Source: Bacteroidota bacterium (GTDB taxonomy: Bacteria; Bacteroidota; Ignavibacteria; UBA10030; UBA8401). From it: DNA of 49,449 bases. The notes beneath the pieces were generated by a model. It was not told where the DNA came from. It saw only the letters and a list, made by a program, of their open reading frames with translations, and made no database searches. The position numbers and the translations under genes were made by a program. This document shows, piece by piece, positions 28,553 through 44,167 of this stretch; position 1 is the first letter of the stretch, and each line of letters opens with the position of its first letter. Where the stretch lies: NCBI GenBank assembly GCA_030679145.1, contig JAUXTU010000058.1:1-49449 (forward strand), given 5' to 3'.

Positions 28553-29383
28553 TTATCTGAAAATAAAGGGTATTGATATGAAAGAAAATATAACCGATGC
28601 AGTTCCTAAAATATCTAAATCACCAAATGCAGGCAAAGAAATAGGAAGATTTAAGACTGTCTGGGGTAAAGGTAAACGTGCGTGAGAGATAGGGAGAGTT
28701 CGCATTCGCCCAGCTTTTACCTGAAAGTTCTTATCGCTTTGGATGGTAACGAATTTCATAGTTAAATTTACGTTCTCCCACCGTAGATTGGTGATCTCAG
28801 CTCTCCTGCAGCCAGTCGTTACCGCAAATAGTACGATATCTTTGAACTGTTCTTCCGTGATAACACTTACCAGTTTTTCAAAATCCTCTGGCGGTAAGAA
28901 CTGTATTGTTCTGTGTGCGACCTTGAGGAAAGAGATTTTCTCGAATGGATTCTTTTCCAACAGTTCCCAATCGACAGCAACATTGAATGCCCGTTTTAAT
29001 TTCTTGAGACGAATGTTTACGGTATTCGGATCCAGTGTTTGGGACAAATAGATTTTATACTTTTCAATATCCCGAGGAGAGATCGTGTGGATGAAAATAT
29101 TCTCTCCCAAGACCTCCACCAATCTGCGAATAGCGATTTCATGTAAACGATGAGTCCGCTCTGCAGCATTCACTTTAACGAATGTGAGATACTCCTCTTT
29201 AAATTGTTTGAGAGTAATGACCGAACGAATGTTCTTCGTTGCATCCTGTGGAAGTTTTTGATTACGGAGAAACTCTAGTGCTTCGGATTTGTTTTTGGTG
29301 CGGGTAGATATTTTATGTCGACGGCCATCTGCATCGTCATAAAATAAATAATATATACCGTCATAACGGGTTGATAGGAACAT
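28553..29383 (-). pseudogene. Tyrosine recombinase/integrase, truncated
   Basis: The 276-aa frame has an Arm-binding-like N-terminus (YDGIYYLFYDDADGRRHKI), a core-binding domain (YLTFVKVNAAERTHRLHEIAIRRLVE), and the first part of the catalytic domain with Arg in TGCRRAEITNLRW and Lys/beta-hairpin SDKNFQVKAGRMRTLPIS. Beyond RTLPIS the sequence becomes unrelated (ISLPAFGDLDILGTASV...), and no HxxR, H/W or catalytic Tyr is present. A deletion junction near 28690 is likely. It sits next to the right attachment repeat, as an element integrase should. Confidence 0.8.
28578..28685 (+). CDS. Small ORF at the integrase truncation junction
   Basis: A 35-codon plus-strand ORF (MKENITDAVPKISKS... ending KGKRA) antisense to the alien tail of the truncated integrase, with an AAAGGG-type site upstream. 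It may be the start of a gene cut by the same deletion. Only weakly supported. Confidence 0.2.
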   Translation: MKENITDAVPKISKSPNAGKEIGRFKTVWGKGKRA

Positions 29384-31628: not shown

Positions 31629-32504
31629 ATGAAAGATTTTGCCCACCAAGTATTTTTCTGGTTCCTTTTTTTTATAGCCAGCGTTACAATAGTTGCCATT
31701 GGTTTCCGTAATTTTGATTTTTACACACTCTCCTTTGAAGAACGCCCGTTCCATGAACGTTATGATGAACTGAAGCCAAGCGGCATTGAAAGCCATGGAT
31801 ACGGAATCATCGGTTCATGTATGATCATTTTTGGCGTTTCAATGTATTCCTCCCGCAAAAGAATTCGTGCTTTCAAGAATTTTGGGAGCATAAAATATTT
31901 TCTGGAATTCCATATCTTTTTATGTTTGCTTGGTCCGGTACTAGTGCTGTATCATACAACATTTAAATTCGGCGGAATAGTAGCAGTCAGTTTCTGGAGT
32001 ATGACAGCAGTGGCGTTGAGCGGAATTGTTGGGCGGTATCTTTACGTGCAAATTCCAAAAGGAATTAAGGGAGATGAACTGACGGTGAAAGAGCTCGAAG
32101 AAAAAAGTATTGAATTATATCGTGAATTAATTGAAGATTTTGAGCTTGATCCTGTCGATTTGCGAAAGATTGACGCTTTAGCAAGTCCGAAACGAACAAA
32201 AAGCGTCTCCATCGTGTCGTTGCTGACCTTTTTCATCCTTAACGATCTTACCAGAAGAGGCAGATTGAAAAGCATTGTTCAGCATTTGCATGGAAAATCC
32301 GTAGATACAGCCAGCATTAAAAAAATAATTGCCGTTGCTAATGAGCGGATAAAACTGCTCCGCCGCGTACACTTCTTAGAACAGGTAAAAAATCTGTTCC
32401 ATTACTGGCATGTTGTTCATCTTCCTTTCAGTATCATTATGTTTGTTATCCTATTCATCCACGTTGGCGTAGCGATCACATTCGGTTACACTTGGATATA
32501 TTAA
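31629..32504 (+). CDS. Multi-histidine membrane protein, probable b-type cytochrome subunit
   Basis: 291 aa with hydrophobic segments at about 7-25, 60-78, 90-108, 118-136 and 262-285 and conserved-looking His residues within them (LEFHIFLC, LYHTTF, FHYWHVVHLPFSI, LFIHVGV). The pattern fits a b-heme membrane anchor that hands electrons from quinol to periplasmic cytochromes; family identity is not certain. A soluble loop of about 120 residues lies between TM4 and the last TM. It is the first gene of the cytochrome operon, 1 bp before the next. Confidence 0.6.
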   Translation: MKDFAHQVFFWFLFFIASVTIVAIGFRNFDFYTLSFEERPFHERYDELKPSGIESHGYGIIGSCMIIFGVSMYSSRKRIRAFKNFGSIKYFLEFHIFLCLLGPVLVLYHTTFKFGGIVAVSFWSMTAVALSGIVGRYLYVQIPKGIKGDELTVKELEEKSIELYRELIEDFELDPVDLRKIDALASPKRTKSVSIVSLLTFFILNDLTRRGRLKSIVQHLHGKSVDTASIKKIIAVANERIKLLRRVHFLEQVKNLFHYWHVVHLPFSIIMFVILFIHVGVAITFGYTWIY

Positions 32505-32505
32505 A

Positions 32506-33099
32506 ATGAAAAAAAATATTGGAATTACCATTTTACTTGGGATCGTTTTTTGTGCAGGAGTTGCTTTTATACTTTTGCGCAACCGGCATGCTGTTGAAAC
32601 GACACCATTGCCCAGACAATCAGAAAATATGTCAGAAAATATGAATATTCCGAAAGAGACTGCTCCATCAAAACAGAACGTTGTTCCTGTCTATCAAGAA
32701 AAAGTAGATCAGCTAAAAGCATCAGTCGAAAAAAATCCTTCGAATGCCGCTCATATCGCTTCACTCGCTCGATTATTGATGGATGGACACCAAACTTCGG
32801 ATGCAATACGATATTTTGAACAAGCGATTGTCATTCAACCAAAGAACGATTCTCTGTTATTTGATCTCTCCGTTTGCTATTTCACTGAAAAGAAATACGA
32901 TAAGGCAATGGAGACAACGGAAAAGATTCTACGTTTCAAAAAAGACAACCCTAAAGCACTTTATAACAAAGCAATGATTTTTGCAACAAGAGGAAATTCC
33001 CCCGAAGCAGAAAAAGTTTTGAAACATTTGATTGATGTTGCGCCTAACAGTGATGAAGCGGTTCAAGCAAAAGCACATTTCTTTCCGTCAGGAAAGTAG
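32506..33099 (+). CDS. Membrane-anchored TPR protein
   Basis: 197 aa: one N-terminal TM (about 5-23), a Pro/Ser-rich linker, then about three TPR hairpins (AHIASLARLLMDGHQTSDAIRYFEQAI, SLLFDLSVCYFTEKKYDKAMETTEKI, ALYNKAMIFATRGNSPEAEKVLKHL). Resembles NrfG/CcmH-type TPR parts that help assemble c-type cytochromes, and lies between the membrane protein and the first multiheme gene, so an assembly or docking role is the likely reading. Confidence 0.7.
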   Translation: MKKNIGITILLGIVFCAGVAFILLRNRHAVETTPLPRQSENMSENMNIPKETAPSKQNVVPVYQEKVDQLKASVEKNPSNAAHIASLARLLMDGHQTSDAIRYFEQAIVIQPKNDSLLFDLSVCYFTEKKYDKAMETTEKILRFKKDNPKALYNKAMIFATRGNSPEAEKVLKHLIDVAPNSDEAVQAKAHFFPSGK

Positions 33100-33101
33100 A
33101 A

Positions 33102-34730
33102 ATGAAGTTTAATTTTCTTAAAGGAATTTTATATTGCGCTGCTATTACCAGTTTTGCTTCCGCGCAAATATCCCCGGGTGACTTATTTAAAGGGCATCAG
33201 CACTTGGAGGGGATGGATAACTGTACGAATTGCCACACGGTCGGCAAGACATTGGCAAATGACCGATGTCTGGATTGCCATAAAGAGATACAGTCTCGTG
33301 TGTCATTAAAAAAAGGATTTCACGCAACGATCGGTTCAAAGCAATGCGTGGAATGTCATAAGGATCATCATGGACGCGAGTTTCAAATAATCCGGTTCGA
33401 CAAAAAGAATTTTGATCATTCGCCTGTGGGATTTGTGTTGGATGGAAAACATGCAAAGGTTGAATGCGAAAAATGTCATACACCGTCGAAAATTACAGCA
33501 AAAGATATCCAAGCATTTTCTCAAGAACGAAAAACAAAGACATTTTTGGGATTATCAACCGAATGTTTGGCGTGCCATAAAGATGAACATCGGGGACAAT
33601 TCAAACAACAGTGTACGACTTGTCACACTACTACAGAATGGAAAAAAGCAGTTCGCTTTTCGCACGAGAATGCAAATTTCAAATTAGTCGGTGCCCACAC
33701 AAAAGTAGAATGTGCACAATGTCATAAAAAAACATGGGATAATGGTTCAGTAGCGCAATTTATTAAAATGGAATTTTCTAACTGCCAATCGTGTCATACG
33801 GATCCGCATAAGGGAAAATTCAAACAAGAATGCACGCAGTGTCATACCACGGAGTCGTGGCATCAAGTAAAAGGAGAGCAGTTCGACCACTCAAAAACAG
33901 CATTTCCTTTAAAAGACAAACATTTAAAATTGAAGTGTGAACAATGTCATGAAAAAAATCCCAAGGTAAAGAATGTTAGCGGTGAGTTAGGATTTCACAT
34001 CACAAAATTCAGCAAATGCAGTAATTGTCATATTGATGCTCATGGGAAACAATTTGATTCACGAAAAGATGGCGGAGCGTGCGAATCGTGTCATAACGAA
34101 AAAGGGTTTATCCCGGCACAATATGGTTTGGCTCAACATTCACAGAGTCGATTTGCTTTAGTTGGCAGTCATATTGCAACACCGTGTGGAAAATGCCACA
34201 TCGAAGGAAAAATTCAGGCAAAAAGTTCAAGAATATTTCACTGGAAAGAAAACATTGAATGCACAACTTGTCACAACAATATTCATGGTCCTCAATTTGC
34301 CGGTAAAATGACTAACGGCTGCGAAACATGCCATACAATTGAATCGTGGCAAACATTGAAGTTTTTACATGATAAAACAAAATTTCCGTTACGTGCAAAA
34401 CATGCTGCAATCGTTTGTACAGAATGTCATAAAACGAAAAATAATATTGTTCAATATGTTGGTATTGATATAAAATGCAATACATGTCACGAAGATCAGC
34501 ATGCCGGTCAATTGGTGAAGAACGGAAAAACGGAGTGTGAACGGTGTCATATCGACAAGAGTTGGAAATCGTTACTATTCGACCATAATACACAGGCAAG
34601 TTTTTCGCTGACAGGGAAACATTCAAATGTGCCATGTGAAAAATGCCATAAACCGACGGGGGTCAATCAGAAAAAAATTATTAAGTACAAACCATTGGGA
34701 GCCGCATGCGTAGATTGTCATCCAGCTTAA
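33102..34730 (+). CDS. 20-heme c-type cytochrome
   Basis: 542 aa with a cleavable signal peptide (FLKGILYCAAITSFASA). I count 20 CXXCH motifs, from CTNCH to CVDCH just before the end; extra histidines between them allow bis-His coordination. Heme density is one per 27 residues, as in multiheme electron-transfer chains. There is no membrane segment after the signal. Position in a compact operon with a barrel protein suggests a periplasmic or surface carrier. The final 25 bases overlap the next gene. Confidence 0.92.
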   Translation: MKFNFLKGILYCAAITSFASAQISPGDLFKGHQHLEGMDNCTNCHTVGKTLANDRCLDCHKEIQSRVSLKKGFHATIGSKQCVECHKDHHGREFQIIRFDKKNFDHSPVGFVLDGKHAKVECEKCHTPSKITAKDIQAFSQERKTKTFLGLSTECLACHKDEHRGQFKQQCTTCHTTTEWKKAVRFSHENANFKLVGAHTKVECAQCHKKTWDNGSVAQFIKMEFSNCQSCHTDPHKGKFKQECTQCHTTESWHQVKGEQFDHSKTAFPLKDKHLKLKCEQCHEKNPKVKNVSGELGFHITKFSKCSNCHIDAHGKQFDSRKDGGACESCHNEKGFIPAQYGLAQHSQSRFALVGSHIATPCGKCHIEGKIQAKSSRIFHWKENIECTTCHNNIHGPQFAGKMTNGCETCHTIESWQTLKFLHDKTKFPLRAKHAAIVCTECHKTKNNIVQYVGIDIKCNTCHEDQHAGQLVKNGKTECERCHIDKSWKSLLFDHNTQASFSLTGKHSNVPCEKCHKPTGVNQKKIIKYKPLGAACVDCHPA

Positions 34731-37063
34731 CCTCGTTCGCGATAGGTATAGTTGCTGCCATATCGTTAGTAATAAATTTTACGTATGGACAAAGTTCGCC
34801 TCACGGTGCAATTAAGATACCTTGTATAAATTGCCATACAACGGAATCGTGGAAAGAGCTTGCGAAACCAATGAAGTTTAACCACACAACCACCGGTTTT
34901 TCGCTGCAAGGTGCGCATTCAAATGCACAATGTGTTCAATGCCATATAACAAAGCGGTTTACGGGAACAACAACGGATTGCTTTAAATGTCATACCTCAG
35001 ATTTTTCAAAAGCTCTGTCGCCCAATCACCAGCTCGGAAAATTTTCACACGACTGTCTGTCGTGCCACACCATGACCGGCTGGAAGCCTTCAGTATTTCA
35101 GCACTCGAAAACAAACTTTCAATTGATCGGTTCTCATCTTTCGGTTGACTGTGCATCGTGTCATACCAATAATCGTTTTGCAGGTTTGTCACGTGATTGT
35201 TTTAGTTGTCATCAAAAAGATTTTGTTCAATCTATTGCGCCTAATCATGTAACGGGTAAATTTTCTCACGACTGTTTAACATGCCATGCTATGACCGCGT
35301 GGCAGCCCGCAATATTTGACCACAATAAAACCAATTTTAAATTGGTGAATGGACATGCAGGAGTAGAATGTTCTTCATGTCATTCGGGTGGAAAATTTAA
35401 AGCATTGGCAACGGATTGTTATTCATGCCATATGCAGGATTTTGTAACTGCAAAAACATTAGATCATTCGCAATTAACGCACGATTGTTTATCGTGTCAT
35501 ACAACCATTGCGTGGAAGCCGGCGACATTCAATCACAGCAAGACTGCATTCCCGTTGGTTGGTGCTCACGCTTCCGCTACATGTGCATCGTGTCATACAG
35601 GCGGCGCGTTTAAAGGATTGACTACGGATTGTTATACATGCCACACGCAGGATTTTGTAAATGTAAAAACAATAGATCATTCAAAATTAACACACAATTG
35701 TTTGACCTGTCATACATCCTTAAGTTGGAAGCCATCAACATTCGAGCACAATAATACAAAATTGCAATTGACCGGCGCCCATGCTGCAGCGGAATGTAAT
35801 TCCTGCCATGCAACCACCAAGTTCACAGGATTGCCAACAGATTGTTACACGTGCCACACTCAAGATATTGTGAATGTGAAAACAATAGATCATTCAAAAT
35901 TATCTCATGATTGTTTGACCTGTCATACAAATATAAGTTGGAAGCCATCAACATTCGATCACAACAAGACAAAATTACAATTAACTGGCGCCCATTTTAC
36001 TGCTGAATGTAATTCCTGCCACCTTACCACTAAGTTTACAGGATTACCAACGGATTGTTATACATGCCACACGCAAGATTTTGTAACTGCTAAAACATTA
36101 AATCATTCGCAGTTATCGCATGATTGTTTAACGTGTCATACTACGTTTGTGTGGAGGCCATCAACGTTTGATCATAGCAAAACTAATTTTCAATTGGCTG
36201 GAGCGCATAAAACAGCAGAGTGTTCTTCGTGCCATACCAATGGTGTGTTTAAAGGAATACCGTCCGACTGCTTCAGTTGTCATCAGACCAACTTTGCCAA
36301 TACAACAAGCCCCAATCATGCAACCGCGCAATTCTCGCACGATTGTTTATCGTGCCATTCAACCAATAAATGGATACCGTCAACATTTAATCACGCAAAT
36401 ACTGTTTTCCCTTTGTTTGGTGCTCATGCCGCAGTTCTGTGTTCGGACTGTCATAAAAATGGACAGTTTAAGGGAACTTCAACGGTTTGTTATGATTGTC
36501 ATTCGACAGAGTTTAACGGTACGACAACGCCGAGCCATGTAACTTCACAGTTCTCTCACGATTGTTTGACGTGTCATTCAAACATAGCATGGAAGCCCGC
36601 AACATTTAATCACAGCACAACTGCATTCCCATTGGTTGGTGCACACGCTGCTGCTACAGTTGTTTGTATAGATTGTCACAAAAATGGAGTGTATAAAGGA
36701 ACAACAACGGACTGTTATACTTGTCATCTGACTGATTACAATGCAACAACAGATCCTAATCATGTGTCGGGAGGGTATACTTCATTAACGTGCACAACAT
36801 GTCATAATACCACAAAATGGCAACCGTGGATATTTAATCATACACCATCTTTTCCGATTGGTTCAAGCGACAAACATTCGCCGGGGAAATGGACATTGTG
36901 TAATGATTGCCATAATAGTCCGGGGAATTTCAAATCTTTTGCGTGTATCACTTGTCATGAGCATAATAATAAGGCGAGTGTGGATAATGATCATAAAGGA
37001 GAATCAGGGTATTCGTATACGAGTGCAGCGTGTTACCAATGTCATCCGAAAGGGAGAAAATAA
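34706..37063 (+). CDS. 31-heme c-type cytochrome with ten tri-heme modules
   Basis: 785 aa, signal peptide followed by 31 CXXCH motifs in ten tandem modules of about 72 residues (each three hemes: HDCLTCH...W.P..F.H...F.L.GAH...C..CH...FKG...DCYTCH..DF) plus one final heme (CYQCH). Each module contains several non-CXXCH His, so all hemes may be bis-His. Such length and regularity suit a rod or wire. The first and last modules match those of the 10-heme protein downstream, implying internal gain of modules. Starts inside the preceding gene. Confidence 0.92.
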   Translation: MRRLSSSLTSFAIGIVAAISLVINFTYGQSSPHGAIKIPCINCHTTESWKELAKPMKFNHTTTGFSLQGAHSNAQCVQCHITKRFTGTTTDCFKCHTSDFSKALSPNHQLGKFSHDCLSCHTMTGWKPSVFQHSKTNFQLIGSHLSVDCASCHTNNRFAGLSRDCFSCHQKDFVQSIAPNHVTGKFSHDCLTCHAMTAWQPAIFDHNKTNFKLVNGHAGVECSSCHSGGKFKALATDCYSCHMQDFVTAKTLDHSQLTHDCLSCHTTIAWKPATFNHSKTAFPLVGAHASATCASCHTGGAFKGLTTDCYTCHTQDFVNVKTIDHSKLTHNCLTCHTSLSWKPSTFEHNNTKLQLTGAHAAAECNSCHATTKFTGLPTDCYTCHTQDIVNVKTIDHSKLSHDCLTCHTNISWKPSTFDHNKTKLQLTGAHFTAECNSCHLTTKFTGLPTDCYTCHTQDFVTAKTLNHSQLSHDCLTCHTTFVWRPSTFDHSKTNFQLAGAHKTAECSSCHTNGVFKGIPSDCFSCHQTNFANTTSPNHATAQFSHDCLSCHSTNKWIPSTFNHANTVFPLFGAHAAVLCSDCHKNGQFKGTSTVCYDCHSTEFNGTTTPSHVTSQFSHDCLTCHSNIAWKPATFNHSTTAFPLVGAHAAATVVCIDCHKNGVYKGTTTDCYTCHLTDYNATTDPNHVSGGYTSLTCTTCHNTTKWQPWIFNHTPSFPIGSSDKHSPGKWTLCNDCHNSPGNFKSFACITCHEHNNKASVDNDHKGESGYSYTSAACYQCHPKGRK

Positions 37064-37882
37064 TTGGTGCTGCGTGTATGGATTATAAGTCTTTTAACCA
37101 TTGTTCCTATTATGGCACAGGATTCTCCTCATGGACCAATTCAATGGATGTGTACTGATTGTCACTCAACGAATGGATGGAACGAAATGGTTACTCCCAT
37201 GAAATTTGATCATTTGAGGACTTCGTATGTACTTCGTGGTCAACACCAAATGGCTGAGTGTATCAACTGTCATTCGTCATTGAAATTTGTCGGAACGTCG
37301 AAGAATTGTTATTCGTGTCATCGCCAGGCATTTGAATCATCCGTTATGCCAAATCATGTTCAGGCTGGATTTAGTATGGACTGCGAACGCTGTCATTCCG
37401 TTGAAGCCCAATCATGGCGAAGTAGTTTCGATCACAACAAAATAGACTTTCCTTTACGCGGTGCGCATGAAGGTGTTGCATGTAATCAATGTCATAGCAA
37501 CGGTGTATTCCGCGGTGTTCCGATCAAATGTTTTGAATGTCATCAGAAAGAATATTTGGCAACAACTAATCCAAATCATCAAACAGCAAATTTTCCGACG
37601 AACTGTGAAATGTGTCATCGCGCATTAACGTGGCAGCCGGCAGCGTTGTTTCCGCACGAATCCTACTTCCCGATTTCGTCGGGCACGAAACATCGTCCGG
37701 GTCGTTGGAACAGTTGCGGAGATTGTCACACAAATTCAGAAAACTATACACAATTTGAATGCATCAATTGTCACGAGCATAATAAATCATCTATGGATGG
37801 AGAACATAAAGGGGAAGTTTCAGGATATGTTTATCAAAGTTCAGCGTGTTATCGATGTCATCCCAGAGGAGAAGCTGAATAA
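37064..37882 (+). CDS. 10-heme c-type cytochrome, short paralogue of the 31-heme protein
   Basis: 272 aa, ten CXXCH motifs in three tri-heme modules plus one terminal heme. The N-terminus (SPHGPIQWMCTDCH) and the C-terminal module (CINCHEHN...YQSSACYRCHPRG) match the ends of the 31-heme protein. Translation starts at TTG 37064 or GTG 37067, with AGGGAG at 37051-37056. No classical ATG is available, which is unusual in this operon. Its stop overlaps the next start. Confidence 0.9.
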   Translation: MVLRVWIISLLTIVPIMAQDSPHGPIQWMCTDCHSTNGWNEMVTPMKFDHLRTSYVLRGQHQMAECINCHSSLKFVGTSKNCYSCHRQAFESSVMPNHVQAGFSMDCERCHSVEAQSWRSSFDHNKIDFPLRGAHEGVACNQCHSNGVFRGVPIKCFECHQKEYLATTNPNHQTANFPTNCEMCHRALTWQPAALFPHESYFPISSGTKHRPGRWNSCGDCHTNSENYTQFECINCHEHNKSSMDGEHKGEVSGYVYQSSACYRCHPRGEAE

Positions 37883-39486
37883 TGATTCGTCTGAAATTAT
37901 TCTATTTCTTGATTGTTCTTTTTGCATTTAGCGTGAAAGCTGATGAAAAGATACGAACATCTGTTTCGTATATTTCTGCATCGGTTGTGTATCTTAATGC
38001 AGGACGTGAAGCAGGATTTGTTGTTGGCGATACGGTTGATATCCAAAAAAATCAACGAACGATTGCTACCATAATTATCACTGCTGTTTCAAAAAAATCT
38101 TCAGCGGCGCAGATCCTTACCGGTGAAGGAGCAATTAGCGTGGGTGATATGGGAATAAGTAAAAAGAATTTTATTGCGCCAATTCCAGCGGCGGCAATTT
38201 CTATCGATACCTTGAAAGAAAGCACAAAAACGATTGTAAAGTCAATTCCTAAAAGTGTGGCATTAGAAAATAATGAAAACATCATTACCGGAAGGGTATC
38301 ATTGCAATATTCTGGAATGTTTGCGGAAGATTCACGTTTCAATTTGAGCCAGCCTGCGCCGTTGCTTCGATTAAATGTGCGTAATCTGTATGGAACAGGT
38401 TTGGAATTTTCCATGTATACACGCAGTTATTACGATCTAACGAACAGTTATCAACGCTATGGCGGATCGTCTCGGTTTAAAACGAGAATATATGAATTTC
38501 AACTACAACACGATCTTCCCGAAGATCAATTTGGTTATGGAGTTGGCAGAATGACATCGCGATATGTCGGTGGAATGGGTGTGTTTGATGGCGCACATTT
38601 TTTTGCGAGGGAAGGTGATTTTACCGCAGGCATTATGTTCGGCGCGAATGTTTTGCAGCAATCTGTTGACGTCAATTCGGATAATACCAAAGAAGCATTA
38701 TTCGTCAGTTATACTTCAGGGAAAGATTTTTCTCAGCATTATGACGGAACGCTTGCGTATATCCGTCAGCATGTGAAAGGAAATCTAGACAGAGAGTTCC
38801 TCTATCTCCAAAACTATGCTGCGCTGAGTTCTCAACTTTCGATCTATGAAAGCTCTGAATTTGATCTGAATGATATCAACAATGGAGTAAAAAGTTCTGC
38901 GCTGAAACTTTCCAACACATTTTTTTCAGTTAATTATTATCCCGTGCCTTGGTTATCCACCAGTGTTGGTTACGATGGTACACGGTCGGTGTATCTTTTT
39001 GAAACCATGAAATCATTTTCAGACACACTCTTTGACAAAAACTTTATGCAGGGTTTCCGAGCGAATGCTACCGTGCGTCTGCCATATTTCATTTCAATTT
39101 CTAGTGGATTTGTAATCAGGACAAAAAAAGGTGATGCAAGAGATGCTGTGACGATGGACGGTTCTGCTCGAATGAGCGACATTCTTGGTTCAGAAATTGG
39201 AGCAGGAGTTCGATATGCAAAGATTTACGGAGTGTATTCTGATGGGGACAATATCACATTTGATATCGACAGAACATTTTTTTATTCGTTGACGACCTCG
39301 CTTCGATATGATTATTTTTCGTACAGAATTCTTACACTAAGGCAAGACTATGCAACACATACAGCGACCGCAAGTGTGAACTACAGAATATCTCGAACGT
39401 TTTATTCTTCACTCTCCGCGGACGATGTGATGGACAAAACAATGAACAGCATCAGGATATTTGCTGAAATTGGCATGAGGTTTTAA
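37882..39486 (+). CDS. Outer-membrane beta-barrel protein of the cytochrome operon
   Basis: 534 aa with a signal peptide (LFYFLIVLFAFSVKA), a small soluble domain at about 25-95 (VVYLNAGREAGFVVGDTVDI), and from about 130 on an alternating amphipathic pattern with many Tyr/Phe and no hydrophobic helices, ending in IGMRF with C-terminal Phe, the outer-membrane assembly signal. A barrel of this size can hold a multiheme cytochrome as in MtrB-type porins; no sequence match to MtrB is claimed. Confidence 0.78.
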   Translation: MIRLKLFYFLIVLFAFSVKADEKIRTSVSYISASVVYLNAGREAGFVVGDTVDIQKNQRTIATIIITAVSKKSSAAQILTGEGAISVGDMGISKKNFIAPIPAAAISIDTLKESTKTIVKSIPKSVALENNENIITGRVSLQYSGMFAEDSRFNLSQPAPLLRLNVRNLYGTGLEFSMYTRSYYDLTNSYQRYGGSSRFKTRIYEFQLQHDLPEDQFGYGVGRMTSRYVGGMGVFDGAHFFAREGDFTAGIMFGANVLQQSVDVNSDNTKEALFVSYTSGKDFSQHYDGTLAYIRQHVKGNLDREFLYLQNYAALSSQLSIYESSEFDLNDINNGVKSSALKLSNTFFSVNYYPVPWLSTSVGYDGTRSVYLFETMKSFSDTLFDKNFMQGFRANATVRLPYFISISSGFVIRTKKGDARDAVTMDGSARMSDILGSEIGAGVRYAKIYGVYSDGDNITFDIDRTFFYSLTTSLRYDYFSYRILTLRQDYATHTATASVNYRISRTFYSSLSADDVMDKTMNSIRIFAEIGMRF

Positions 39487-39487
39487 T

Positions 39488-40789
39488 ATGAACGAAACTC
39501 TAATCACAATTGTGATAACCGTTCTACTTATTCTTGTTACGGTTATTCCGTATGTAAGAAAATTCCAGAAAAAAGAAAATAAAGCCCGTGAAAAATTTAA
39601 AAAAATGAAGATCTCCGGTCTCGATGAAGCCATGACCATGCACCCGCATATTGATTTGGTGCAGTGTATCGGATGTGGTGTGTGTGTTCGTGCATGCCCG
39701 GAAGGTGATGTACTCGGTTTAATTGAAGGAAAAGCAACGCTCATCCATGGCGCAAAATGTGTTGGTCACGGATTGTGTGCTGAAGCTTGTCCGGTCGGCG
39801 GGATTGAATTGATGATGGCAAAGCCGGGACGTAGTGCAGACCTGCCGATTATTGACGAGAATTTTGAAAGCACAGTAAAAGGAATGTTCATTGTTGGTGA
39901 GCTTGGAGGAATGGGATTAATAAAAAATGCTATATCTCAAGGGAAGAAAGTTATTGAACATATTTCCAAACTGCCGCCAGCGTCAAGGGATGATATGGTT
40001 GATGTTGCAATTATTGGAGCGGGTCCGTCTGGATTAACAGCCGGATTGACTGCGCATGAAAAAAATATACGATATATCATTGTTGAACAAGGTGATATCG
40101 GAGGAACCATTCTTCAATACCCGCGAGCCAAAATTGTAATGACGAATCCTGTTGAACTTCCAATATGGGGTAAACTAAAATTTACAGAAGCAAGTAAGGA
40201 ACAGTTGCTTGAATTGTGGAATAACATTATTGAGAAGGTACAATTAAAAATTGAAACCAATGAAAAGGTAAGCAACATTCTGTCTGCGAATAATGAATTT
40301 GTTCTTACAACGACCACAAAACAAATAACAGCTCGATATGTAGTTCTCGCGCTTGGTCGAAGAGGAACGCCGAGAAAACTTGGTGTGCCGGGGGAAGAAC
40401 GATCAAAAGTTACGTATCGATTGATCGATGCGGCAACGCATCATGACGAGAATATTTTGGTGGTTGGCGGCGGTGATTCGGCGATTGAAGCGGCGATCGG
40501 GCTCGCTTCTCAAAATAATAACAAAGTGACATTATCCTACCGGAAAAATGAATTTTCCCGCATTAAAGAACGGAATAGAACTCACATCGATGATTTTATC
40601 TCCCGAAAAAAAATAACGATCCTCTTTAACTCCGAAGTGAAAGAAATACGGGAAGATACTGTCCTGCTTAGTACGCAAAACGGTGAACTAGAGATCAAGA
40701 ACTCTTATGTGTATATCTTTGCCGGCGGTGAACTTCCCAACGAGTTCCTTAAGAAAATCGGTATACAAATGCATACTCAAGTTGCATGA
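39488..40789 (+). CDS. Membrane-anchored 2[4Fe-4S]/FAD oxidoreductase, TrxB-like
   Basis: 433 aa. One N-terminal TM (about 5-24), then two ferredoxin-type motifs: C60-C63-C66-C70 (CIGCGVCVRACP) and C91-H94-C97-C101 (CVGHGLCAEACP), where His replaces one Cys, as in relatives of this family. Then two Rossmann folds: FAD-binding GAGPSG and NAD(P)-binding GGGDSAIEAA. Function: oxidises NAD(P)H or another reductant and sends electrons into the Fe-S clusters. The orientation puts the active part in the cytoplasm, the natural donor of this operon. Confidence 0.87.
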   Translation: MNETLITIVITVLLILVTVIPYVRKFQKKENKAREKFKKMKISGLDEAMTMHPHIDLVQCIGCGVCVRACPEGDVLGLIEGKATLIHGAKCVGHGLCAEACPVGGIELMMAKPGRSADLPIIDENFESTVKGMFIVGELGGMGLIKNAISQGKKVIEHISKLPPASRDDMVDVAIIGAGPSGLTAGLTAHEKNIRYIIVEQGDIGGTILQYPRAKIVMTNPVELPIWGKLKFTEASKEQLLELWNNIIEKVQLKIETNEKVSNILSANNEFVLTTTTKQITARYVVLALGRRGTPRKLGVPGEERSKVTYRLIDAATHHDENILVVGGGDSAIEAAIGLASQNNNKVTLSYRKNEFSRIKERNRTHIDDFISRKKITILFNSEVKEIREDTVLLSTQNGELEIKNSYVYIFAGGELPNEFLKKIGIQMHTQVA

Positions 40790-40947
40790 ATCTTTAAGGC
40801 AAATAATATTTTTCGCCGACAATAAGATGTTAACCGAGCTATTTAATAGAACAAAGTTAATTGTTCAGGATTATAATTCCCACCTGCAGACCATTGCAAT
40901 AAGGGCAAGAAAAAACTATTTTGGAGAAGGGAAAATCAATTATAGTT

Positions 40948-41871
40948 ATGACCTCTCCGTATAAAAATCTTCCAAATAATATCCTGAAAACCGTAGCATA
41001 TTTTGACGTTTTTGATTATCCGTTAACGACTGAGCAAATATTCCGTTTTTTACCACAAAATTCTATTTCCCATGGCGATGTTGAGAATGCGGTTGAACAC
41101 ATGGTAAAATCAAAAGAATTGGTGAAAGAGAAGTCATATTTTTTACTACCATCAACTCATCGCAACATTACTGAAAAACGAGAAGCAGAAGAACGTCGGG
41201 CAAAAAAGAGATTGAAATATGCGAGAAACATTTCTCGATTCATAAAATCCCTTCCATTTATTAGAGCAGTATTCATTACCGGGTCACTTTCAAAAAATGT
41301 TGCTGCTTCTTCAAGCGACATCGATTTTATGATTGTTGCTGCGCCGGAACGATTGTGGGTCTGCAGAACAATGTTAACCGCGTTTCGAAAGATCTTTCTG
41401 TTCGGCAGCTCAAAATATTTCTGCACGAACTTTTATGTCACTGAAAACGGTTATGCACAGCAACGAAGAAATATCTTTACCGCCATTGAAGTTGCAACGA
41501 CAAAAGTGATATGGAATGAATCGGCATTCTTGGAATTTCAAAGACAGAATCAATGGATGAAAGAATTTTTACCGAATATCAACGTAAGCACAGATCAAAA
41601 ATTAATGATCTCTTCTTCCCGCTCACTGAGTCAGCAGATTATTGAAATAATCCTTAGCATCCTTCCTCTCCGTGCGTTGAACATTAGGCTGATGGAATTT
41701 CACAGAACATACTGGCAGAGATCATTCAATCATACCAGCACCGAGCAATTCAACATGATGTTCATCATTTCACCCGATATTTCTGCAGGCTGGCCCGATG
41801 ATCGTCAGGAAACCATACTGAAGGAATTTCACCACAGACTTTCTTCGTTAGGAATACGGGAATCCTTATGA
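40948..41871 (+). CDS. Winged-helix plus nucleotidyltransferase-fold protein
   Basis: 307 aa from ATG 40948. N-terminal winged-helix-like segment (LKTVAYFDVFDYPLTTEQIFRFL), then a polymerase-beta-type NTase motif GSLSKNVAASSSDIDFMIV. The rest is helical with no motif I recognise. An earlier TTG (40921) would start inside the GGAG-like site, so ATG is preferred. Stop overlaps the radical SAM start; same operon as the next three genes. Substrate unknown. Confidence 0.7.
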   Translation: MTSPYKNLPNNILKTVAYFDVFDYPLTTEQIFRFLPQNSISHGDVENAVEHMVKSKELVKEKSYFLLPSTHRNITEKREAEERRAKKRLKYARNISRFIKSLPFIRAVFITGSLSKNVAASSSDIDFMIVAAPERLWVCRTMLTAFRKIFLFGSSKYFCTNFYVTENGYAQQRRNIFTAIEVATTKVIWNESAFLEFQRQNQWMKEFLPNINVSTDQKLMISSSRSLSQQIIEIILSILPLRALNIRLMEFHRTYWQRSFNHTSTEQFNMMFIISPDISAGWPDDRQETILKEFHHRLSSLGIRESL

Positions 41872-43331
41872 CCGATGTTCTGCTGACGCACTCATACTTT
41901 CTTTATTTTGATCCAAAACAGGCGAAAGCACAAATGCCATATCCGCCTCTTGGAACATTGTATGCAGCAGGATATTTGGAATCAAACAATATCAGTGTAA
42001 AATTATTTGATACAATGCTGTCGTCGTCTGAATCCGAACTTCGGGATGTACTTCGAACGATTCAGCCTAAAATTCTTGTGATTTACGATGACGATTTTAA
42101 TTATCTGAACAAAATGTGTCTTACGCGAATGCGTGAAGCCGCGTTCGTGATGTCTGCAATTGCAAAGGAATTCAATATTCCTGTTTTCGTGCATGGGTCT
42201 GATGCAGCTGATCATGTTGAAAAATATTTGTCAAATCATGCAGACGTGGTAATTATTGGCGAAGGAGAACAGACATTGCTGGAAACATGCAACGCTTATT
42301 TAACAAACCAGCAGTCTCGGTTGAATACGATTCATGGAATTGCATTTGTCTCCAACGGAAAAATTATTACAACAGAAAAAAGAAATGTTATCCGTGATTT
42401 GGATTCACTTCCTTTTCCTGCATGGAATCTCGTTGATGTTGAACGTTACCGGACTATTTGGGAAAAGCACCATGGATATTTTGCTGTGAACATGGTAACG
42501 ACACGGGGATGCCCTTATCATTGTAACTGGTGTGCAAAACCGATCTATGGTCAAGTATACAATTCCCGCTCACCTGAACATGTGGTGAAAGAGTTGATGT
42601 TCCTTCAATCGGAATTGCAGCCGGATCATATTTGGTTTGCGGATGATATTTTCGGATTGAAACCGGGATGGGTGCAGCAATTCTCTAAACTTGTTATTGA
42701 ACATAATGTAAAAATACCGTTCATGATTCAATCCCGTGCTGATTTATTGGCGCACGACGACACTGTAGAAGCATTAGCCAACGCGGGCTGTGTAGAAGTT
42801 TGGATCGGCGCGGAATCCGGTTCACAAAAAATTCTTGATGCAATGGAAAAAGGGATCACGGTCTGGCAGATTTCTGAAGCGCGCCGATTATTAAAAAAGC
42901 ACGGAATCAAAGCATCATTCTTTCTGCAGTTTGGTTATCGCGGAGAATTATTAGAAGATATTCAGGCGACAATTTCAATGGTGAAAGATCTTATGCCGGA
43001 CAATATTGGTATTTCAGTTTCATATCCTTTGCCTGGAACGAAATTCTACGAAACAGTGAAATCAAACATGGGAGAGAAAAAAAATTGGTTCGATTCCGAC
43101 GATCTTGCGATGATGTACCGCGGAACATATTCCCCACGATATTATAAACTACTGCATCGATATGTTCATAAAATATTCCGCTGTAAACAAGGTGTGTCTT
43201 TGTTCAAAGATTTCGTCAGGTTTAAAAGTGCTGTTACTAAAAGCCAACTGAGAAGAATTATTTTACTTGTCTATTATATCCCTGCATTGTTCTTTGATCG
43301 GATACGCTTACGTCAACTTTCGAAAGTATGA
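41868..43331 (+). CDS. B12-binding-domain radical SAM enzyme
   Basis: 487 aa. N-terminal cobalamin-binding-like Rossmann half (PPLGTLYAAGYLESNNISVKLFDT... VVIIGEGEQTLLE), then the radical SAM cluster at Cys215, Cys219, Cys222 (GCPYHCNWCAKP) and the TIM-barrel with AESGSQKILDAMEKGI. Members methylate or rearrange unactivated carbons in lipids, cofactors or antibiotics. Overlaps both neighbours by 4 bp, so it works with the methyltransferase behind it. Confidence 0.9.
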   Translation: MTDVLLTHSYFLYFDPKQAKAQMPYPPLGTLYAAGYLESNNISVKLFDTMLSSSESELRDVLRTIQPKILVIYDDDFNYLNKMCLTRMREAAFVMSAIAKEFNIPVFVHGSDAADHVEKYLSNHADVVIIGEGEQTLLETCNAYLTNQQSRLNTIHGIAFVSNGKIITTEKRNVIRDLDSLPFPAWNLVDVERYRTIWEKHHGYFAVNMVTTRGCPYHCNWCAKPIYGQVYNSRSPEHVVKELMFLQSELQPDHIWFADDIFGLKPGWVQQFSKLVIEHNVKIPFMIQSRADLLAHDDTVEALANAGCVEVWIGAESGSQKILDAMEKGITVWQISEARRLLKKHGIKASFFLQFGYRGELLEDIQATISMVKDLMPDNIGISVSYPLPGTKFYETVKSNMGEKKNWFDSDDLAMMYRGTYSPRYYKLLHRYVHKIFRCKQGVSLFKDFVRFKSAVTKSQLRRIILLVYYIPALFFDRIRLRQLSKV

Positions 43332-44167
43332 TGAAAACAAATTCAATCTCTTCATTTGACTCAAGGGAAAATGCAACTCTTGTCAACATTGCATTCTCAG
43401 CTCAATCGCCGTTGTTTGACATTATTCAAAATAATAATGTGATGCTTCAATGGATGCGTTCAGTTGTTCAGCGCCACGTTGAAGAGTATCTAAAACCGGG
43501 CGATACGATCCTTGACATCAACGCCGGAACCGGAATTGATGCAGTTCATTTCGCAGAAAAAGGATATGCTGTTCACGCAATGGATATTGCTGAAGGGATG
43601 GTGAATGAGATCAGGAGGAAAATTATTTCGAAAGGTTTGGATGATCGCATCACAGCGGAACAGCGTTCGTTCACAGAAGCAGGGGAATTGTCGCCAAAAA
43701 AGTTCGATCATATTTTTTCTAATTTTGGCGGATTAAATTGTGTGAACGATCTCCATCAAGTTGCTGAACAACTGCTCCGAGTCATTAAGCCAAATGGACT
43801 GTTAACGTTGGTGATCATGCCCCCAATCTGCCCTTGGGAAATTGCACATATCTTTCGAGGAGACACAACGATCGGGATGAGACGGCTTCACAACGATGGA
43901 ATTATTGCTCACATTGAAGGACATTATTTCAAAACCTACTATCATACCGTATCGAGTTTGATAAAAAGTTTTGGAGATCAGTGTACCGTTCTCAAAATAC
44001 GGGGAGTGGCCTCGTTTTCTCCTCCTCCGTATATGGAGAAGTTTCCGCAAAAATTCCCCGGTGTGTATTCATTCCTTCAATCATGCGACGAACGATTCTC
44101 AATGTTTCGGCCATTCAACCGATGGGCAGATCAGTTTATCATCACAATGAAAGTTCGAGATATTTGA
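43328..44167 (+). CDS. Class I SAM-dependent methyltransferase
   Basis: 279 aa with motif I TILDINAGTGIDAVHF and VHAMDIAEGMVNEI, and post-motif FDHIFSNFGGLN. Ubiquinone/menaquinone-type (UbiE-like) fold, but substrate is not shown. Overlaps the radical SAM gene and is followed 6 bp later by the deaminase. Confidence 0.88.
   Translation: MMKTNSISSFDSRENATLVNIAFSAQSPLFDIIQNNNVMLQWMRSVVQRHVEEYLKPGDTILDINAGTGIDAVHFAEKGYAVHAMDIAEGMVNEIRRKIISKGLDDRITAEQRSFTEAGELSPKKFDHIFSNFGGLNCVNDLHQVAEQLLRVIKPNGLLTLVIMPPICPWEIAHIFRGDTTIGMRRLHNDGIIAHIEGHYFKTYYHTVSSLIKSFGDQCTVLKIRGVASFSPPPYMEKFPQKFPGVYSFLQSCDERFSMFRPFNRWADQFIITMKVRDI

Follow-up and report, generated by a model that had tools for sequence, protein, structure and literature searches.

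A seven-gene, PCC3-like cassette with an NAD(P)H-type flavoprotein as a candidate trans-envelope electron conduit of Bacteroidota

The DNA analyzed here, referred to as the window, is a stretch of 49,449 nucleotides from a bacterium of the Ignavibacteria lineage of Bacteroidota (assembly GCA_030679145.1, contig JAUXTU010000058.1). It contains a cassette of seven + strand open reading frames (ORFs), at positions 31629-40789, in which three cytochrome genes encode 20, 31, and 10 CxxCH heme-binding motifs. The genes, together with a repeat array that lies within one of them, are as follows.

31629..32504, + strand: inner-membrane protein (IMP), polytopic, 291 aa, a probable diheme cytochrome b (AlphaFold2 model, conserved His)
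32506..33099, + strand: TPR protein with an N-terminal transmembrane segment, 197 aa, an optional member (family match)
33102..34730, + strand: 20-heme cytochrome with a signal-type N-terminus, 542 aa, 20 CxxCH
34706..37063, + strand: 31-heme cytochrome, triheme modules between two end pieces, 785 aa, 31 CxxCH
35396..36237, + strand: tandem array inside the 31-heme gene, 4 copies of a 213-bp unit with 77% matches, one unit being one triheme module
37064..37882, + strand: 10-heme cytochrome, a short paralogue of the 31-heme protein, 272 aa, 10 CxxCH, TTG start
37882..39486, + strand: outer-membrane beta-barrel, 534 aa (AlphaFold2 model)
39488..40789, + strand: membrane-anchored FAD/NAD(P) flavoprotein with two Fe-S motifs (NF), 433 aa, Fer4 plus Pyr_redox

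In gene order, the junctions between the seven genes are 1, 2, -25, 0, -1, and 1 bp. The original prediction, which had been made from the DNA alone and had described seven packed genes with these heme numbers, is borne out by the ORFs, the CxxCH counts, and this spacing of -25 to +2 bp. It is also the spacing on which the operon structure rests, because promoter- and terminator-like sites around the cassette show no excess over shuffled sequences. Pfam and NCBIfam return matches for the TPR protein, for the cytochromes (as c3/c7-type), and for NF (as Fer4 and Pyr_redox), and neither collection holds a family for the IMP or the barrel at E <= 0.01.

The distribution of the cassette was investigated in 247 genomes of the phylum by a search with the barrel and a profile search with the IMP. 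Of the 247, 20 have the barrel. IMP matches occur in 26 genomes, in 22 of them at E < 1e-80, and the barrel genomes all fall within these 22. The two remaining genomes of the 22 contain a cassette whose barrel is divergent and which includes a 64-heme cytochrome (G219, locus L163) and a broken remnant (G140, locus L164). Of the four weak matches, one is an incomplete IMP that contains a stop (G097), and the others are short pairs of an IMP and a cytochrome (G110, G129, and G157). In all, 21 of the 247 genomes carry the cassette, each with NF; in one (G082) it is split over two contigs (L033 and L172), and at another locus (L030) the 20-heme gene lies in two frames. In the decayed cassette L164 (G140:C56:36000-55000), the IMP stops early and a 94-aa piece of the barrel accompanies it, and no cytochromes were matched. 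Three genomes with a full cassette (G184, G055, and G219) also have a second, weakly matching pair of an IMP and a 10-heme cytochrome (L169-L171).

A scan of named genomes with the IMP profile yielded 508 relatives, the best 80 of which were kept and read. Among these best 80 of 508, all titles name Bacteroidota or the Chlorobi/Ignavibacteria/Kryptonia group, except one that reads 'bacterium' (L069). After removal of six duplicate contigs, there are 80 distinct loci with an IMP (>200 bits) and a cytochrome ORF. A barrel is encoded at 60 of these, and the sole barrel-bearing locus without NF (L041) is cut at a contig end. Two gene orders occur, with NF upstream of the barrel in 36 of 58 loci and after it in 22 of 58. 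The genes that flank the inspected relative loci have no matches to the cassette and vary in size and strand. Co-conservation, whose absence had been named beforehand as a result that would speak against a conduit, is thus what is found: barrel genomes have the IMP in 20 of 20 cases, and NF is present at 59 of 60 barrel-bearing loci. Because every barrel genome has the IMP, and the cassette itself was read in the loci, the association is not due to chance, and it supports the earlier view of a co-conserved candidate conduit whose parts could span the cell from cytoplasm to outer membrane. The TPR gene, which had been counted as part of the cassette, is present in the window; it is an optional member, with a match near the IMP gene at 21 of the 60 barrel-bearing loci.

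A full cassette (IMP, NF, 23- and 40-heme cytochromes, and barrel) adjoining a CcsA gene is found on plasmid pEMTOL02 of Emticicia oligotrophica (L128), a location that offers a route by which the cassette could pass from one lineage to another. A search of viral contigs gave no barrel relative. Seven IMG/VR contigs that are classed as viral (L121-L127) encode short IMP relatives of 149-177 aa, and multiheme ORFs are present in the fetched stretch of L127 only.

The original prediction had described the first gene product as a polytopic, multi-His protein; this is confirmed, and what it had missed is that the protein is probably a diheme cytochrome b. The AlphaFold2 model (pLDDT 84.6) has five long membrane-type helices and a cytoplasmic-type helical arm. 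Helix 3 carries one pair of histidines (H95/H109) and the last helix another (H264/H278); within each pair the spacing is 14 residues, a pattern that would suit ligands of two hemes b. H95 and H109, along with S131, G132, and G135 of an SG..G motif (131-135) on helix 4, are invariant in all 80 IMP sequences; H264, H278, and W260 are present in 79 of 80, with one gap. The Trp that precedes H264 is this W260, and the equivalent position before H95 is Trp in 61 of 80 sequences but Phe in the window protein. Two other histidines are also well conserved, H56 (72/80) and H261 (79/80). Of seven histidines checked, five remote plasmid relatives (Methylophaga, Alteromonas, Pontibacter, Acetobacter, and Methylocystis) keep only H95, H109, H264, and H278, and not H6, H56, or H261, whereas the Emticicia IMP keeps all seven. 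A Bradyrhizobium plasmid protein annotated as 'iron reductase' is likewise related to the IMP (hhalign probability 96.9). Charges place two segments in the cytoplasm: the loop that joins helices 2 and 3 (mean K+R 5.2, D+E 0.0) and the arm that precedes the last helix (21.8 and 13.5, respectively). Comparison of the model with solved structures gave a best E of 0.7 with Foldseek, and with VIA a best Z of 9.7 (rmsd 6.5 over 152 residues), mostly from matches to ABC transporters and long helices that form the background for helical models; the IMP profile retrieved a single, unrelated row (E 0.47) from the PDB sequences. Cytochrome b561 entries stand low in both fold-comparison lists and were not used as evidence.

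These features resemble a system that is already in print. He et al. 2017 (PMC5566968) named PCC3, a four-gene set found mostly in Proteobacteria. In the available passages of that paper, its parts are a porin, a cytochrome that is extracellular (34 hemes in the median and at most 85), a periplasmic cytochrome (median 21 hemes), and a five-helix membrane protein of ~300 residues that carries two WX3HX13H motifs and, on helix 4, SGXXG, and which the authors inferred to be a diheme cytochrome b, likened to NOX/FRE, and proposed to have quinone activity. PCC3 was found through Fe(II) oxidizers (PMC5566968, PMC10734462); in Gallionellaceae its cytochromes have 21, 24, or 27 and 10-35 hemes (PMC10734462), and its function has not been tested, according to the text available from PMC12442390. 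The window set has the five-helix IMP with HX13H on helices 3 and 5, SGXXG on helix 4, a porin gene beside long cytochrome genes, a cytochrome of about 21 hemes (20 here; that of PCC3 is called periplasmic), and a second cytochrome that is long by heme number (31 here, up to 64 in relatives). The original prediction had called the set unlike the named Mtr/Omc/Pcc sets, a claim that is not supported, since its parts, heme numbers, and IMP motifs match the description of PCC3. It is called PCC3-like here by likeness to this published description in parts, heme numbers, and IMP motifs, rather than by sequence comparison with proteobacterial PCC3.

There are also differences from PCC3 as described. 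Besides the Phe that replaces the Trp before the first His on helix 3, the window has equivalents of the four PCC3 genes plus NF, a TPR protein, and a second cytochrome of the long type. Across the Bacteroidota loci, NF is nearly always present, the TPR gene is present in a third, and there is often a second, short cytochrome. The host is a member of the Bacteroidota rather than, mostly, of the Proteobacteria; the periplasmic-type cytochrome has 20 hemes instead of 21, 24, or 27; and the long one is built from triheme modules with heme counts of 3n+1. Other known systems share less with the window set. The ferric-reductase domain of NOX/FRE has two HX13H pairs, a partner with flavin and NAD(P)H, and electron transfer across a membrane; however, the IMP lacks a match to the FRD family (PF01794) at E <= 0.01, its candidate flavin partner is a separate Fe-S protein, and its acceptors would be cytochromes c. 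MtrAB, MtoAB, and PioAB are likewise conduits of a barrel and a multiheme cytochrome, but their cytochromes are decaheme proteins, in contrast to the 20- and 31-heme proteins here, and the window barrel is not of the MtrB/PioB type.

The two kinds of cytochrome differ in how constant their heme numbers are. The first contains exactly 20 CxxCH in 68 of 77 complete relatives and 23 in four; counts of 10, 14, 16, 18, and 19 are seen once each, those of 10 and 14 arising from split genes (L066 and L030). Residues ~23-263 of this protein match the short plasmid cytochromes that stand beside remote IMP relatives (42 records), which suggests that its N-terminal end meets the IMP. It is proposed to be a periplasmic bridge and the first partner of the IMP, its length presumably matched to the width of the periplasm; that the periplasmic cytochrome of PCC3 could span this space has been suggested (PMC10734462). 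By contrast, the 31-heme protein, whose heme number had been given correctly in the original prediction, is an array of triheme modules of ~71-73 residues, which had been missed; the heme spacing 32-16-23/25 recurs and is visible in the DNA as the 213-bp tandem array. All three cytochromes of the original prediction are present, but the 10-heme protein has the same two terminal heme spacings as the 31-heme protein with fewer modules between them (mutual match 6e-75, independent of any profile).

Heme counts in relatives mostly follow a 3n+1 rule. Among 70 complete later cytochromes from barrel-bearing loci, which range from 9 to 64 hemes, 56 contain 3n+1 CxxCH motifs, and 64 do so once CX3CH and CX4CH motifs are included for every one of the 70, with no 3n+1 protein lost; the six that depart are at L037, L038, L040, L050, L053, and L067. 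(This count excludes six duplicate contigs and ORFs that touch a contig end, and from L066, where the 20-heme gene is split, includes the 43-heme gene only.) The counts speak against chance as the origin of the rule, and a p value that takes no account of kinship was not relied on. These patterns suggest a fixed 20-heme bridge and a wire tuned in triheme steps. Neither the 20- nor the 31-heme protein has a relative among PDB sequences at E <= 0.001. The cytochromes match MtrC/MtrF domains at 43.1 and 53.8 bits, above the Pfam cut-off of 30, and their DmsE hits stay below the cut-off, the 20-heme protein scoring 58.9 bits against 192.2 for the decaheme DmsE/MtrA-type family TIGR03508; both were read as likeness of heme-dense repeats, not as membership. 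The TPR protein has a weak CcmH/CycH-TPR likeness (31.9 bits, below the 42-bit cut-off), and may possibly be a helper in cytochrome maturation.

The AlphaFold2 model of the sixth product (pLDDT 81.5, pTM 0.65) consists of an N-terminal beta domain (residues 22-95), a low-confidence linker (100-128), and, from residue 134, a barrel with 22 strands as counted from DSSP elements. Its best fold matches in the PDB are outer-membrane barrels, namely ushers, OprD-type porins, and TonB-dependent receptors. Too narrow a barrel had been singled out as a result that would speak against a conduit; with 22 predicted strands this one is not obviously too narrow, and by estimate a plug-free barrel of this size should hold a heme chain. 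An MtrB/PioB identity was rejected, as there is no match to PF11854 and the profile comparison with the genome's own MtrB/PioB barrel gives a probability of 2.1; the same Pfam and profile comparisons rule out an MtrAB reading of the cassette. As for an OmbB type, the barrel was compared only with another barrel of the same genome, which is itself of unproven type.

The part that departs from published PCC3 is NF. The original prediction had recognized an NAD(P)H-type Fe-S/FAD enzyme, which is confirmed, and had missed this departure. NF has an N-terminal transmembrane segment, two Fe-S motifs, and an FAD/NAD(P) module. The second motif, C91-xx-H94-xx-C97-xxx-C101, is present in 72 of 72 sequences, as are the ligands C60, C66, and C70 of the first; position 63 is S, C, T, or A in 40, 24, 7, and 1, respectively. 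One of the clusters may have a His ligand. In the window protein all seven Cys lie inside the Fe-S motifs, and electron exit is therefore expected to occur via Fe-S. The nearest solved relative is YpdA (PDB 7a7b, E 2.1e-34), which shares the FAD/NAD(P) module and from which NF differs by its transmembrane anchor and two Fe-S motifs. NF as a YpdA bacillithiol disulfide reductase was rejected: it scores 186.2 bits against a family cut-off of 339.9, and it has Ser where the GPCGL loop of YpdA has Cys. A thiol route is unlikely because of this replacement and because every Cys of NF belongs to an Fe-S motif.

Insight into the role of NF comes from the remote relatives of the IMP. Of 15 plasmid records that contain one, seven were opened, plus one from a search with the N-terminal part of the 20-heme protein. 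In six opened plasmid records and in Bradyrhizobium, a gene for an FAD- or 2Fe-2S-type oxidoreductase directly precedes the IMP gene. The two such oxidoreductases that were scanned (Alteromonas and Pontibacter) consist of FAD_binding_6, NAD_binding_1, and Fer2, and 2Fe-2S proteins are annotated beside the remote IMPs of Methylophaga, Acetobacter, Methylocystis, Qipengyuania, and Bradyrhizobium. The Emticicia locus has NF itself, and a Pyr_redox protein is encoded near the second IMP/cytochrome pair at L170 and L171. This repeated pairing with different flavoproteins is the main argument that NAD(P)H, instead of quinol or in addition to it, is the source of electrons for the diheme IMP. The plasmid relatives fit the description of the porin-free pairs of an IMP and a multiheme cytochrome in the available text of PMC5566968. 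These pairs resemble the window set in their five-helix IMP with two HX13H, in the multiheme cytochrome beside it, and, as a rule, in a further redox protein; they differ from it in having no porin and few hemes.

The plasmid module as a whole (L129-L133, L173, and L174) is made up of an FAD-/2Fe-2S-type oxidoreductase, an IMP relative (annotated as hypothetical or iron reductase), and a short cytochrome, with 7 hemes in the four counted. Its hosts are the seven genera Methylophaga, Alteromonas, Pontibacter, Acetobacter, Methylocystis, Qipengyuania, and Bradyrhizobium. The plasmid often carries copper genes, and in Alteromonas the module adjoins [NiFe] hydrogenase genes.

Taken together, these results favor the reading that the cassette encodes a complete PCC3-type trans-envelope conduit, and that in this version from Bacteroidota an NAD(P)H-oxidizing flavoprotein forms the cytoplasmic end (probability roughly 0.55). 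It is favored because of the co-conserved cassette, the invariant His pairs of the IMP, the presence of NF in two gene orders at nearly every barrel-bearing locus, the pairing of remote IMPs with flavoproteins, the improbability of a thiol route through NF, the likeness of the N-terminal part of the 20-heme protein to the short cytochromes paired with IMPs, and the barrel model. The gene set, its motifs, their co-conservation, and the modular heme numbers are direct observations, and the path that follows is a proposal built on them. NAD(P)H would reduce the FAD of NF, whose Fe-S clusters would pass electrons on singly to the heme b on the cytoplasmic side of the IMP (H95/H264) and from there to the heme on its periplasmic side (H109/H278). 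The periplasmic-side heme would in turn reduce the N-terminal part of the 20-heme cytochrome, which would bridge the periplasm and deliver electrons through the barrel to the wire of triheme modules (31 plus 10 hemes here). This wire, with the long cytochromes presumably located outside, would reach a mineral, humic substance, electrode, or partner cell, with export as the probable usual direction and the quinones by-passed. In its boldest form, the proposal is of a self-contained, quinone-independent wire from cytoplasmic NAD(P)H to the outside, with a NOX-like flavin/diheme-b step, a fixed 20-heme bridge, and a lineage-tuned triheme wire (up to 64 hemes), widespread in Bacteroidota; this is put forward tentatively, as somewhat below even odds.

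The same genome contains further genes for electron transfer. COX1 and a [NiFe] hydrogenase are present, and searches for cytochrome bd and RuBisCO in this genome gave no match. A second candidate conduit (L185, G000:C78:1-19900) includes a 424-aa barrel-type ORF with no Pfam family and 14- and 8-heme cytochromes, accompanied by a cytochrome b, a Rieske protein, a NapC-type 6-heme protein, and further cytochromes with 11, 13, and 19 hemes. At a third (L188, G000:C67:5000-18000), an 11-heme cytochrome is encoded next to an MtrB/PioB barrel (401.6 bits), and a Pyr_redox plus Fer4 protein of another type than NF follows ~1 kb downstream. NrfA- and NapC-type genes are found at L187. With these two further candidates, electrons probably have three ways of crossing the outer membrane in this organism.

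Several points weigh against the proposed path. Gene neighborhood is no proof of contact; the fold comparisons of the IMP yielded no relative; no export route could be assigned to the long cytochrome; and no NF-type ORF was matched at three short IMP/cytochrome pairs (L166-L168) within the stretch fetched. The sequence distances of the cassette parts correlate with one another at 0.74-0.83, which is weak support because related sequences share ancestry. The four-gene proteobacterial PCC3, in the passages available, is described without such a flavoprotein, so the IMP may work without one; He et al. propose quinone activity (PMC5566968); and H56 and H261, which are absent from the remote relatives, could serve a quinone site. 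These last points are shared with a rival explanation, in which the menaquinone pool is the redox partner of the IMP, and NF, as an accessory enzyme or a redox sensor, stands outside the main flux. It agrees with the published PCC3 model (PMC5566968, PMC12442390) and with the two conserved histidines that are additional to the diheme ligands, and the cytochrome b, Rieske, and NapC-type genes of the other conduit-like locus L185 also suit it. However, it does not readily account for a flavoprotein with invariant Fe-S ligands at 59 of 60 barrel-bearing loci, nor for the NAD(P)H-type flavoproteins of a different make beside the remote IMPs, and is considered rather improbable.

Electrons might instead run inward, from reduced minerals, H2, or partner cells to NAD(P)+ or the respiratory chain, an explanation that overlaps the others and is given about the same low likelihood. 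The discovery of PCC3 through Fe(II) oxidizers, the [NiFe] hydrogenase genes next to a remote IMP relative on the Alteromonas plasmid, and the heme-copper oxidase of this genome point in that direction, as does the full cassette on the plasmid of E. oligotrophica, which is an aerobe. The lack of a RuBisCO match in the genome speaks against import, as do the several carriers from groups in which metal reduction is known or suspected, such as Melioribacter and Labilibaculum; neither is decisive. The searches of the genome did not settle the direction of flow, which the original prediction had rightly left open. It is also conceivable, although very unlikely, that the long cytochromes never leave the periplasm, where they would store electrons, and that the barrel is an unrelated or assembly pore. 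No surface-export signal was recognized in the cytochromes by eye, with no predictor run, and short barrel-free IMP/cytochrome sets do exist, several of them beside copper-resistance genes; but within the 247 genomes the barrel never occurs without the IMP, and its sequence distances rank-correlate with those of the 20-heme protein (0.817, to which shared ancestry contributes).

About 2.2 kb upstream of the cassette, at 28553-29383 (- strand), lies a tyrosine-recombinase-like ORF whose XerA/C/D matches are well below the cut-off. Downstream, at 40921-44167 (+ strand), are a weak nucleotidyltransferase match, a B12-binding radical SAM protein, and a methyltransferase, with no evident link to the cassette.

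Earlier work has touched on such systems. Putative novel porin-cytochrome clusters in Bacteroidetes are mentioned, without gene detail, in PMC6344600, and Ignavibacteria with 33- and 40-heme cytochromes and OmbB- and MtrB-like porins are reported in PMC7399161, which also notes variation of heme number in large cytochromes of other taxa; judged by the passages available, these reports may already include this cassette. The available text of PMC11475568 and PMC13322032 adds nothing on it. No description of a flavoprotein in a PCC3-like set or of a 3n+1 rule was found in the searched literature, with preprints, most subscription papers, and supplements outside its scope. A Bacteroidota PCC3-like form with NF, a near-constant 20-heme cytochrome, and a 3n+1 triheme wire goes beyond what turned up in print.

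Anoxic sediments, soils, and reactors harbor abundant Bacteroidota, and electron exchange with solids is known for few of them. The cassette provides a sequence marker for such exchange in this phylum, with 508 IMP relatives in one genome collection. If NF indeed feeds the wire, electrons could exit straight from NAD(P)H without quinones, unlike in the quinone-linked model of PCC3. In addition, one part is nearly fixed at 20 hemes while its neighbor varies in steps of three, which makes the length control of a biological wire testable.

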